Assembly (NCBI RefSeq): GCF_024345495.1
Contig: NZ_JAGQBF010000015.1
Coordinates: 1 to 64,000 of the forward strand
Direction: 5' to 3'
Length of the DNA: 64,000 nt
DNA from: Synechococcus sp. RedBA-s
GTDB taxonomy: Bacteria; Cyanobacteriota; Cyanobacteriia; PCC-6307; Cyanobiaceae
Shown here piece by piece: positions 18,601 to 49,776 of the stretch. Under the pieces are notes generated by a model. It worked only from the letters and a program-made list of their open reading frames with translations. It did not search any database and was not told the DNA's origin. Position 1 is the stretch's first letter, and every line of letters starts with the position of its first letter. The translations under genes and the position numbers were made by a program.

Positions 18601-22737
<4,137 letters not shown>

Positions 22738-45552: not shown

Positions 45553-46041
45553 TCAGTTGCCCAGGCCGGAGCTGATGTAGTCGAGGTAGGTGCCGAGTTC
45601 ACGGCCGGCCTCCGGTCCCACCAGCGAAGCGGCGGCTTCCTTGATGGCCTGGATCGACTGCACGGTGGCACCGATGGGCACGCCCAGGGAGTTGTAGGTC
45701 TCCTTGAGCCCGTTCAGCACCCGCTCGTCGAGGATCGAGGTGTCACCCGCCAGCATGGCGTAGGTGGCGTAGCGCAGGTAGTAATCCAGGTCGCGGATGC
45801 AGGCTGCATAGCGACGGGTGGTGTACATGTTGCCGCCCGGACGGGTGATGTCCGAGTACAGCAGGGTCTTGGCGACGGCTTCCTTGATGATCGCTGCCGA
45901 GTTGGCACCGACGGTGGCCGCTGCGCGGACACGGAGCTCGCCGCTGGAGAAGTACTGCTCCAGCCGTCCGATCGAGGAGTCGTCCAGGTAGAGGCCCTGA
46001 ACGTCGGACTGGTTGATGACGTTGGTGATCGCGTCTTGCAT
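45553..46041 (-). CDS. apcB: Allophycocyanin beta subunit
   Basis: A 162-residue phycobiliprotein. Cys81 ([10 protein letters not shown]) binds phycocyanobilin; Asn71 (GGNMYTT) is the usual site of asparagine methylation in beta subunits. It forms the alpha-beta monomer of the phycobilisome core with ApcA. ATG at 46041 follows apcA by 40 bases. Confidence 0.97.
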
Positions 46042-46081: not shown

Positions 46082-46567
46082 TCAGGAGAGGGCGCCGATG
46101 ACGTAGTCGAAGTAGAAGCCTGCCTCTTCGGCGTCGGCTCCCGTGAGTAGCCCCAGGGAGGCGTTCTTGAGCTCACGGACAACCTCGGCCATGGCCTCCA
46201 AGGGAGTGCCGAGCGCGCGATACATTTCGCGGGCGCCGATGATGCCGATTTCTTCGATCGGGGTGACGTCACCCGCGACGACGCCGTAGGTCACCAGGCG
46301 CAGGTAGTAGTCGACGTCACGCAGACAGGTGGCTGTCATTTCCTCGCCGTAGGCATTGCCGCCGGGTGAGATCAGGTCGGGACGCTTCTGAAAAAGGGCG
46401 CCGCCGGCCTGCTTCACAATCCGCTCGCGACTCTCGCCCAAGACCTGAGCCACCCGCAGCCGGCGTTGACCGCCGGCGACGAAGGACTTGATCTGGTCGA
46501 GTTCGCCAGGGCTGAGGTAGCGGGCTTCGGCGTCCGCGTTGATGATCGAGTTGGAGACGATGCTCAT
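46082..46567 (-). CDS. apcA: Allophycocyanin alpha subunit
   Basis: A 161-residue phycobiliprotein starting [20 protein letters not shown]. Cys81 ([16 protein letters not shown]) binds phycocyanobilin. First gene of the apcA-apcB-apcC transcript, separated from apcE by a terminator and a 359-base upstream region. Confidence 0.97.
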
Positions 46568-46926: not shown

Positions 46927-46956
46927 AAGAAAACCCCCGAGCTTACGTCCGGGGGT
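46927..46956 (-). terminator. Terminator of apcE
   Basis: On the minus strand ACCCCCG pairs with CGGGGGT around a ten-base loop and is followed by TTTTC. It lies 18 bases past the stop codon at the end of the apcE region. Confidence 0.8.
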
Positions 46957-46973: not shown

Positions 46974-47424
46974 TCAGATCACGCCGCGCGGCGGTGGTGT
47001 CAGACCGGCGTTGCCGGCATAGAGCAGGGCCGTGAGGTTCACCGTGGCCAAGGGGATGCCATTGGCGGTTGCCATGACCCTGAGGTAAGGAACGGTGTCA
47101 CGGCCGAAGCTGTGGGCGAACTCCTTGCCCGAGAGCAGGTCGTCGAGGGCGGCCAGCTGACCCTTCCTGCCGCGGGTGGCCAGATAGCGGCTCATTTCCT
47201 TGGGTTGGGCGGCTCGCCCCAGCAGGGCCAGGTAGGCCGCCGATGCCGCCCGCAGGTGGCTTCCACCACCATCTGGAGCATGGCCTCATCGGCCTTGGGC
47301 AGCAGCATCACCGGCTGGCCGAGGCTGCGGCGACGGCTGAAGCCCTGGGGGCTGGCTCCACCAAGGGCCTTGGCCATGGCCGCTCCGGGCTGGGCCGCCG
47401 CGCCTAGCTGCCGACCTTTGAGCT
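46974..47424 (-). pseudogene. apcE: Out-of-frame 3' remainder of apcE (third linker repeat, broken)
   Basis: Past the stop of the main apcE frame the minus strand still codes for ApcE in other frames. From about 47510 to 47250 one frame reads APTPGAQPSLERG...ADEAMLQMVVEAT, the start of a linker repeat. Another frame from about 47250 to the stop at 46974 reads LRAASAAYLALLGRAAQP then GRDTVPYLRVMA and ends NAGLTPP-PRGVI, the end of such a repeat and of ApcE. Compared with repeat 1 of the same protein about 55 residues between these two parts are missing. Either a real deletion plus frameshift or an assembly error. Confidence 0.8.
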
Positions 47425-49776
47425 TCAGCCAGTGGCGCTGCTGCCGGGGCGGTTTGGGCCCACGCTCCAGCGACGGCTGGGCTCCGGGGGTTGGCGCAGA
47501 CTCTGAGGAGCGCCGCTGGTGGAGCTGGCCGGGGTGGCCGGGGTCTCTTGACCTTCGGCGACACGGGCCGTCCAGCCACCCACAACCTGGCGCAGGCGGC
47601 GGTCGGGCAGGTTCCGTGGCGTGAGGTCACCACTGCTGCGGAAACTACTGACTGGGCTCACCTGGGGTCGGCTCACCGGGGTGAGGTCAGGAGAGGTGGA
47701 GGGGTCGAGGGCCCTGCTCAGGGCGGGAATCCTGCGGGCATTGAGGTCGGCAGGGGTGACGAAGCGCTCGTACGGGACCGTGTCCTCTCCGAAGGCTGCC
47801 AGGTACTCGGTGCTGTTGACCATGGCGTCGACGACGCCGTAGAAGCCGTGGCGTGCCGCCGTGTCGAAGTAGCTGTTGAGCTCACGCCGCCCGAAGGTGG
47901 GCCGCCCGATCAGGCGGCGGTGCATCACCTCAATCGCCTTGGTGATGTAGAGGTTTGACCAGTAGCGGCGCCTGAACGCCGTGGAGCGCGCTACCTGGCG
48001 AATGAATTCGCGCAGGCTGATGTCGCCGTTCTCGAGCTTGATCTCCTCCACCTTGAGCTGCTCGCCGTCGTAGCCGCAGGTGCCGAGCACCTGCACATAC
48101 ACGGCCCTGATCACCCCCTGGGTGCTGGCTTCGGTGCCGCGGATGCTGGGCTGGCCGCCGCGGCTGGGCACTGAGGCGCCACCGGTGGCGATCTGCTGCA
48201 GCCTCACCACCTTGGGGCCCACGCGCCGGGGGGTAGAGGCCCGGAACTGGGGGCTGTCCATCTGGCCGGGTTCGGCCATGCCGTTGCCCACCAGGATGCG
48301 TCGGGTGTCGTCGTTGAAGGGGGCCGGCCGGGTGGCCACCGAGGCCGTTCCCGAGGGGAAGATGGCGCCGTAATTCAGGCCCAGGGGGTCGTTGCCGCCG
48401 CCATAGGGGTGCTGATCGGGCAGGGGTTGGCGGTACGACGCATACAGCGTGATGTACTGGGGCGCGCCTTCGAAGGGGGCGCTGAAGCGGAAGAGCTTGC
48501 GGTTCGATCCCCAGCCGGCGCTCTCCTGGGCCTCTTCACCAAGACCGCGCAGATAAGGAACGGTTTCCTCCCCGAAGGTCTGGGCGTATTCCTGGGTGTT
48601 GATCAGGGAATCCACCAGGCCGGCCAGTCCCTGCTGGCTGACGATGGCGAAGTAGCGACGGAATTCCTCGATCGTGCTCACGCCGCGGCCGAGGAAATGG
48701 CGGAAGGCCAGTTCCACCACCCGGCTGTTGGAGAAGCGGCCGTAGAACTGACGTCGGTATTCCTTGCTGCGCCCCAGGGCGCGGATGAACTCCCGCATCG
48801 AGAGTTGTCCCTGGGAGACCTGGGTGGTCTCCACGGGAGCCACCACCTGGGAGTAGCCCTTGACGATGTCCCGCTGGAACACCTGCCGATAGGCGGCACG
48901 GATCACCTCGGCCTTCTCACGGCCGGAGAGGCCTGGCTTCATCACGAAGCGCTGGCGGGATTCCGCGGCCAGGGCGTAGATGGCCGGCAGCTGCAGGCCC
49001 TGGTTCTCGGGGCTGCCCAGGCGCTGGCGCGCCGAGGGGGTGGGAACCGCCAGCTCCTTGAGCAGCACGTTGAAGCAGTTGATCACCAGTTCTCTGGCTT
49101 CCGAATCCTTGCGGAAAAGGTTGGCTGCTGCGGCGCGCATCTCCTGCAGCGCCACGTTGGTGGCGGCCAGGGAGCAGGCCTTCTCGAGCACATCGCGCAG
49201 CCCGCGGGTGTTCACCACCAGGATGCTGGGGTCACCGGCCACCAGGGCATAGCCCACGTAGCGCAGGAACCAGCCCATGTCGCGCAGCGACTTGCGCATG
49301 CGCTCGGTGCCGTAGCGGGCCACGCTGATGGGGCTGAAGCCGGCGGGGAGCACCACCCGCACGTCGGCATCGGCCTGGACCCCTTCGAGGATCCGTCCCA
49401 GCAGACCGCCACCACCGCTGCCCTGGGCGAAGGTGCGCACGGAGGTGGCAGCGGCCACCTGGTCGCTGGCCAGCGTGGTGGTCTCTGTCGAACCCACATT
49501 GAAGGGGGTCAGGGGAGCATCGAGATAGGAGAGCGGTGTGCCGCCGGCGAAGATGCGGTTGGCGGCCTTGGCGACGATCGCGTCGGCATTGGCGGAGATC
49601 AGCCGAGCCGCTTCAACGCGGGCCGAGCCGCTTCGGTAGAAGGTGAGCAGGGTCTCGAGCTCAACCTTCTCGGGGAAGCGATCCTGTTGCTCCGACTGAC
49701 GGACGCTGGAGAGCGGCAGGGTGTCGTAGCGCTGAGGGCTGACCCTGGTGCTGCCGCTGCTGGCGGTCACGGTCAT
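47425..49776 (-). CDS. apcE: Phycobilisome core-membrane linker ApcE (L-CM), truncated by frameshift
   Basis: The continuous frame gives 783 residues of the large anchor polypeptide that organises the core and passes energy to photosystem II. Residues 1-245 are the phycobiliprotein-like domain with PB-loop (about 80-150) and the probable chromophore Cys201. Linker repeat 1 covers about 285-412 and repeat 2 about 550-680; they share R-AY-QV, a GR-motif and FGE-TVPY. The frame then enters foreign sequence and stops at 47425, whereas the missing third repeat lies downstream in other frames. Intact ApcE of this type is expected to have roughly 950-1000 residues. ATG at 49776. Confidence 0.9.
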   Translation of the reverse strand: MTVTASSGSTRVSPQRYDTLPLSSVRQSEQQDRFPEKVELETLLTFYRSGSARVEAARLISANADAIVAKAANRIFAGGTPLSYLDAPLTPFNVGSTETTTLASDQVAAATSVRTFAQGSGGGGLLGRILEGVQADADVRVVLPAGFSPISVARYGTERMRKSLRDMGWFLRYVGYALVAGDPSILVVNTRGLRDVLEKACSLAATNVALQEMRAAAANLFRKDSEARELVINCFNVLLKELAVPTPSARQRLGSPENQGLQLPAIYALAAESRQRFVMKPGLSGREKAEVIRAAYRQVFQRDIVKGYSQVVAPVETTQVSQGQLSMREFIRALGRSKEYRRQFYGRFSNSRVVELAFRHFLGRGVSTIEEFRRYFAIVSQQGLAGLVDSLINTQEYAQTFGEETVPYLRGLGEEAQESAGWGSNRKLFRFSAPFEGAPQYITLYASYRQPLPDQHPYGGGNDPLGLNYGAIFPSGTASVATRPAPFNDDTRRILVGNGMAEPGQMDSPQFRASTPRRVGPKVVRLQQIATGGASVPSRGGQPSIRGTEASTQGVIRAVYVQVLGTCGYDGEQLKVEEIKLENGDISLREFIRQVARSTAFRRRYWSNLYITKAIEVMHRRLIGRPTFGRRELNSYFDTAARHGFYGVVDAMVNSTEYLAAFGEDTVPYERFVTPADLNARRIPALSRALDPSTSPDLTPVSRPQVSPVSSFRSSGDLTPRNLPDRRLRQVVGGWTARVAEGQETPATPASSTSGAPQSLRQPPEPSRRWSVGPNRPGSSATG

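Follow-up and report, generated by a model that had tools for sequence, protein, structure and literature searches.

The window, by which we mean the whole stretch of 64,000 nucleotides analysed here, spans positions 1-64000 of contig C7 in a 61-contig, 2.72-Mb draft genome of Synechococcus sp. RedBA-s, and carries on its minus strand apcE, the gene of the phycobilisome core linker ApcE (LCM), with apcA and apcB downstream (Table 1). The protein is recognised as ApcE by a PF00502 domain followed by PF00427 repeats, both over the cut-off, and by these two neighbours, which pass the NCBI cut-offs and are intact, as an earlier sequence-only reading of this DNA had supposed. The 3' part of apcE is broken, and we conclude from comparison with related genomes that the break is very probably genuine and that the third linker repeat (REP3) was lost for real.

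Frame translation bears out that the main frame, opened by the ATG at 49776, stops at 47425 after 783 residues. Beyond this point ApcE-like sequence goes on in two further frames up to a normal C-terminus and the old stop (46976-46974). After this stop comes a hairpin with a T-rich stretch, a terminator-like element at the place where the earlier reading had put its terminator. The second frame had been thought to begin at about 47510; it does exist, but the first frame remains homologous down to 47400. We aligned the gene with that of eight congeners, including Synechococcus WH 5701, J7-Johnson, BSA11S, CS-1329, 1G10, Cruz-7E5 and the closest relative, the metagenome-assembled genome (MAG) Cyanobium sp. 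CZS48M (G008), and in all eight apcE is a single open frame of 1008-1011 codons. The terminating TGA (47427-47425) replaces a codon that is Trp in every congener, and a second nonsense codon, TAG (47406-47404), stands where seven congeners have Ser and one has Ala. Both frame changes described by the sequence-only reading are present, although it had not recognised an 88-bp deletion between REP2 and REP3, in the hinge (placed at 47400/47399), as the cause of the first. The other comes from a deletion of 154 bp (placed at 47256/47255), which took away about 51 codons of REP3, rather than the 55 or so residues first estimated; about half of the repeat is indeed absent. Both deletions equal 1 modulo 3, their joints share 3 and 2 bp, respectively, as read from the alignment, and all four inactivating events sit downstream of the hinge motif RQPPEPSRRW. 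On both sides of the lesions the alignment with G008 is at about 96%.

According to Pfam, the window ApcE has exactly two PF00427 stretches, against three in one frame in G008, and the 154-bp deletion leaves no open REP3 frame behind the cut. Of the two alternatives put forward by the sequence-only reading, the first, in which the core linker retains just two complete repeats, is thus the one that agrees with the domain count and with the loss of constraint in the tail. The REP3 remnant, with its inactivating lesions and this loss of constraint, can be described as a pseudogenised domain.

Table 1. The apcE region of the window; positions count from the first letter of the window.
Feature	Positions	Strand	Evidence or remark
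apcE as translatable: 783 residues, chromophore domain + REP1 + REP2 + 111-residue C-terminal hinge	47425..49776	-	2 PF00427 and 2 PF00502 stretches
REP1 (PF00427)	48547..48921	-	E 3.6e-39
REP2 (PF00427)	47764..48132	-	E 6.0e-39
Hinge motif RQPPEPSRRW, residues 761-770	47467..47496	-	type kept in 25/25 truncated ApcE
Nonsense codon TGA	47425..47427	-	alignment with congeners
Second nonsense codon TAG	47404..47406	-	alignment with congeners
Joint of the 88-bp hinge deletion (frame change 1)	47399..47400	-	alignment with congeners
Second-frame remnant: end of hinge and start of REP3	47256..47399	-	alignment with congeners
Joint of the 154-bp REP3 deletion (frame change 2)	47255..47256	-	alignment with congeners
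Third-frame remnant: second half of REP3 to old stop	46974..47255	-	PF00427 positions 66-126, E 4.9e-9
Terminator-like hairpin and T-rich run after the old stop, aligned with G008	~46927..46955	-	read by eye from sequence and alignment
apcA, intact	46082..46567	-	NF058521 291.1 bits, cut-off 270
apcB, intact	45553..46041	-	TIGR01337 232.6 bits, cut-off 228.15

The other alternative was a mis-assembly across similar repeats, i.e. an intact apcE in the cell and a contig mis-joined or corrupted by base-calling errors. The linker repeats are alike and a draft of 61 contigs invites this suspicion, but an error of that kind would have to produce two nonsense substitutions and two simple deletions with joints of 2-3 bp, and it would also have to imitate a gene region that has evolved without visible constraint. 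When changes on the window branch are polarised with the seven other congeners, the tail shows 12 non-synonymous to 3 synonymous changes, versus 12:30 in the head (first 700 codons; p=0.0008); the excess persists without the nonsense changes (10:3, p=0.003) and when codon 862 is counted a single time (p=0.006). Eight codons substituted in the remnant encode an identical residue in all seven other congeners. No such excess is seen on the G008 branch (1:2 in the tail, 5:16 in the head), and the pairwise ratio of non-synonymous to synonymous rates (dN/dS) between the window and G008 is 0.10 over apcE codons 1-700. Furthermore, apcE is the only open reading frame (ORF) shown to be frame-broken among the 38 compared with G008 (window positions 8236-64000), one ORF at the edge remaining unjudged. 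This check, limited to ORFs whose differences from G008 fall mainly at third positions, flagged five of the 38: apcE, the ORF cut by the edge, and three that are explained by starts or neighbours, two of them having upstream alternative starts (open frames of 379 and 576 residues) and one lying upstream of an open 81-residue ORF that we take to be atpE. A cruder check on long G008 ORFs, which this one replaced, had flagged 16 of 43, probably for the most part shadow ORFs of a GC-rich genome. Finally, a similar loss is found in other genomes, some of them on a single contig (G052, G089, G061 and G204). We therefore regard an artefact as very improbable, and the loss of REP3 as the reading to be developed.

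The repeated severing of the same repeat across the family was not foreseen by the sequence-only reading. A REP3 query was run on 400 family genomes, followed by a search for the whole of apcE in 49 genomes (27 + 22), and the sequence behind the hinge was read where the contig allowed. Out of 122 ApcE heads, the tree retains 88, after removal of seven at contig ends or partial (G262, G202, G246, G286, G116, G081, G268), 15 duplicates (one genome under two ids), five partial or single-cell loci and seven distant outgroup loci. REP3 is fused to the rest of ApcE in 63 rows and severed in 25, being split off but, as far as seen, intact in 10 and decayed or gone in 15. The split genomes, with a hinge stop or frame change and an open REP3, are G158 (Synechococcus sp. 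ATX 6A2), G112 (MAG K_DeepCast_35m_m2_155), G161 (REP3 cut by the contig end), G189, G226, G090, G303, G357, G369 (REP3 on another contig) and G273 (MAG Cyanobium CACIAM 14). Those with a decayed or missing REP3 are, besides the window, G204, G146, G343, G360, G130 (Cyanobium usitatum Tous), G052, G183 (MAG casp40-mb.195), G026, G075, G102, G141 (whose contig ends 289 nt after the stop, its REP3 state resting on a scrap), G156, G089 (SynAce01) and G061. On the tree the fused state must have changed 13 times or more, with 11 of these changes forced by starred branches; for the lost state the minimum is seven (six forced) and for the split state eight (seven forced). We read these changes as losses, the counts themselves not separating gain from loss. 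Two starred groups of five rows each share the lost state, which therefore outlives speciation.

A few rows of this tree deserve mention in their own right. G303, G357 and G369 are sister rows (L130, L148, L129, L181) with different hinge lesions (TAG in two of them, REP3 lying in the +1 frame, and TAA in the third) and an open REP3 of pairwise dN/dS 0.08-0.10. G199 has two apcE-type genes (C27:156529-157155 and C16:7716-8339), both with a fused REP3 and open frames of about 1150 residues. Four repeats are present in L099, L109 and L110, of the marine Synechococcus type, as in the extended LCM with a fourth repeat that passages of PMC2246261 report for some marine Synechococcus.

The cuts fall in one place. 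Every one of the 25 truncated ApcE keeps a motif R(R/S/T)W (type P.P.RRW), and its chain stops 1-48 residues past it. Measured in the congeners, the distance between the ends of REP2 and of the motif is 95 residues, the next 65-68 reach PQGF, and a further 176 lead from PQGF to the C-terminus. The lesions seen in the ten split genomes all lie between the motif and REP3 and none within REP3; if cuts were equally likely everywhere behind the motif, the chance of this, (66/242)^n, would be 1.1e-4 for seven events and 2.3e-6 for ten, a crude model for a hypervariable hinge. In the genomes that have lost REP3, the first stop carries little information on which lesion was the earliest. The motif is also found in 45 of the 63 fused rows, the 18 without it being marine and S. 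lacustris-type rows. The hinge measures about 175-180 residues in the window's genus (approximately 673-835 of the G008 protein), compared with some 68 in rows from Hyella and Xenococcaceae. The best phmmer stretches to solved ApcE chains stop at residues 678-721 of the G008 protein; the greater part of the hinge thus lacks a solved counterpart among those found here.

Why should the lesions spare REP3 in ten genomes? One answer is that, after a cut in the hinge, REP3 is made as a polypeptide of its own and works in trans, which may fit these ten genomes and an earlier stage of the window lineage. The confinement of their lesions to the hinge is what this predicts, subject to the crudeness of the equal-chance model. 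It is also consistent with the substitutions: non-synonymous to synonymous changes in REP3 are 90:143 on eight split branches and 81:120 on six fused sister branches (p=0.77), and the former differ from the 12:3 of the window tail (p=0.002). Hence REP3 in the split genomes is not measurably relaxed, and a free-standing REP3 chain is possible; part of each branch, however, predates the cut, and unchanged ratios may only mean that the cuts are recent. The hinge of G090 contains four in-frame stops, yet its REP3 frame is open over 204 residues, and the sister species G303, G357 and G369 each combine a hinge lesion with an open REP3. On the other hand, the REP3 of G161 ends at a contig edge and that of G369 is on a different contig, and an obvious ribosome-binding site is seldom present. 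A Met in an AMAKAL pattern stands just before REP3 in 60 of 76 rows (ATG at about 47378 on the minus strand of the window), but a Shine-Dalgarno-like site precedes it in just 13 of these 60, and in two (G273 and G158) of the seven split genomes among them. An internal Shine-Dalgarno site before REP3 is thus unsupported as a general rule. In the rows with Gly before this Met, the codon is GGA (giving GGAG) in 13 of 41 cases versus 8.8% overall, an excess owed in part to the several rows that come from the window's genus, where GGAG lies 5 nt before the conserved ATG in six of the eight congeners (G008, G001, G005, G006, G002, G003) and in the window. On balance we consider a free REP3 a serious possibility that falls short of an even chance.

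It could also be imagined that the hinge stops and frame changes are read through by recoding and that full-length ApcE is still made. In G158, G112, G161, G189, G226 and G090, REP3 does share the reading frame of the head beyond the stop or stops. Recoding is nevertheless the least credible of the alternatives. The stops are TGA, TAG and TAA at differing places, G090 and G161 each carry at least two in frame, and the lesions of G303, G357 and G369 differ, with no common site seen; in the window, ribosomes would have to pass two stops and two frame changes to translate a REP3 of which half is missing.

A different way to account for the window would be a general relaxation of the phycobilisome, with apcE decaying along with other antenna genes in an organism that is losing its antenna. 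The same genome has 12 PF00502 matches, all without internal stops, and apcA, apcB and the alpha and beta genes of both phycocyanin and phycoerythrin pass the NCBI cut-offs (cpeA 280.6 bits, cut-off 225; cpeB 316 bits, cut-off 275). ApcA-like and ApcB-like genes on other contigs, scoring under the cut-offs, may be apcD and apcF. There is one further broken gene that could be cited for such a relaxation: a rod-linker-like gene lying within positions 19387-22755 of contig C17 (minus strand) has a TGA at codon 153 (around 20875-20877), directly after its PF00427 domain, and stays in frame past it to codon 311, whereas G008, G007, G006 and G005 have TGG there and 311 codons from the same start. 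On the branch of the window's genome this gene shows 4:10 non-synonymous to synonymous changes before the stop and 7:8 after it. In WH7805, according to passages of PMC2246261, phycoerythrin genes stand in place of a portion of the phycocyanin cluster that includes cpcC genes, and a loss of phycocyanin rod linkers with the replacement by phycoerythrin would explain the break in C17. As the PF00502 matches are stop-free and the first 700 codons of apcE remain constrained, a general relaxation appears improbable, if slightly less so than an artefact, and we keep to the loss of REP3.

The rods themselves may be connected with this loss. CpeA scores over the cut-off in 9 of 15 lost genomes (G102, G141 and G156 counted as negative), in 4 of 10 split genomes and in 17 of 94 fused genomes among the matches listed, which go down to about 200 bits, with marine types under-represented and split genomes, contig-edge matches and second copies left out. 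The difference between lost and fused genomes has p=0.0013, uncorrected for kinship. In a test on 11 independent pairs of the tree, severing and phycoerythrin change in the same direction in 6.3 pairs on average and in the opposite direction in 0.1 (median p 0.031). The test covers 67 of the 88 rows, without G102, G141 and G156 (MAGs beside G026 and G075) and rows lacking a matched genome; the ambiguous matches L063 and L077 were settled by hand and the chance match L117 was dropped. In the window's own genus, a search of the G008 genome at the cut-off gave no CpeA match, and G002, G003 and G004 combine phycoerythrin with an intact REP3. These data are suggestive only, from sequence, of a tendency of severing to accompany phycoerythrin; a change of rod type might perhaps relax the need for a third cylinder.

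Taken together, we think it probable that apcE of the window has lost REP3 and yields a 783-residue product serving a two-cylinder core, and that this is one case of recurrent hinge cuts in the family. The sequence shows nonsense codons that end ApcE just past the hinge motif and, behind them, a decaying remnant with two deletions. The shortened protein, with its chromophore domain, REP1 and REP2, would go on organising the two basal cylinders of allophycocyanin and anchoring the antenna, while the top cylinder, given the known role of REP3, would no longer be held; the loss should remove that cylinder and reduce rod attachment. By the states on the tree, relatives have come to this shortened ApcE many times through cuts in the same hinge, and these states can be ordered, we infer, from a hinge stop with an intact REP3 through a decaying REP3 to none.

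Several points weigh against this interpretation. The window tail compared directly with the G008 tail is not significantly different (12:3 versus 1:2, p=0.17, with few changes in the latter), and in the tail the pairwise dN/dS between the window and G008 comes to 0.42 instead of 1; constraint therefore held during part of the window branch. The tree is a quick, single-gene one, supported only by approximate likelihood-ratio values of the Shimodaira-Hasegawa type (SH-aLRT). As to phycoerythrin, split and fused genomes do not differ significantly in CpeA (p=0.11, uncorrected for kinship), the p value for severing spans 0.008-0.22 over random pairings, and the lost state alone gives six pairs with a median p of 0.25. 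Other linkers could in principle hold a third cylinder.

A bolder version would treat picocyanobacterial REP3 as a modular element: repeatedly cut in the hinge after a fixed motif, it would survive for a time as a separate chain that keeps the top cylinder in place in trans, and would then be retained or lost, the core passing from three cylinders to two, preferentially with phycoerythrin rods, and the window would be caught just after the loss. This we offer tentatively, as somewhat less likely still than the free chain on its own.

A two-repeat ApcE as such is already known. The ApcE of Synechococcus elongatus has two repeats, and we know of no decaying third repeat there; its bicylindrical core, compared here by description only, is the architecture expected for the window. 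Passages of PMC10433846 describe the core of UTEX 2973 as bicylindrical. Two REP domains behind the chromophore domain, as in the window, are also found in far-red ApcE2 (PDB 8uhe, 783 residues; 9i1r, 780 residues), and are taken in parts of PMC10810746 as the basis of the bicylindrical far-red light core; more generally, the number of pfam00427 domains is said in a passage of PMC12279586 to determine phycobilisome structure. ApcE2, however, is a separate paralogue used under far-red light, whereas the window gene is the only ApcE found in its genome (PF00427 and P0001 searches) and was recently shortened. The nearest comparison is the three-repeat LCM of congeners such as WH 5701, at the same locus and with 92-96% identity to the 783 residues of the window, which shares the chromophore domain, REP1, REP2 and hinge but has REP3 in one frame. 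SynAce01, Cyanobium usitatum Tous and casp40-mb.195 resemble the window in that their ApcE (773-784 residues) ends just past the hinge motif, with REP3 absent or in scraps; they differ in being separate losses on the tree and more decayed. apcE goes unmentioned in the excerpted text of the SynAce01 genome paper (PMC6337551), and we found no report of REP3 loss or splitting in picocyanobacteria in the open-licence PMC literature. The extended LCM is likewise a natural change in repeat number, but a gain there and a loss here. Most sequenced marine Synechococcus are said in the same passages of PMC2246261 to have typical three-cylinder cores, and wider screening of apcE is called for.

A three-cylinder core is thus not to be assumed for every picocyanobacterium. 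The family offers a series in which REP3 is intact, split, decaying or gone, including sister rows that differ in state, and to our knowledge no natural series of intermediates between core architectures is otherwise available. WH 5701, which has three repeats, ATX 6A2, whose apcE is split, and the two-repeat SynAce01 or Cyanobium usitatum Tous lend themselves to direct comparison. It is this wider pattern, the repeated cutting at one hinge with its split stage, that deserves the attention of specialists.

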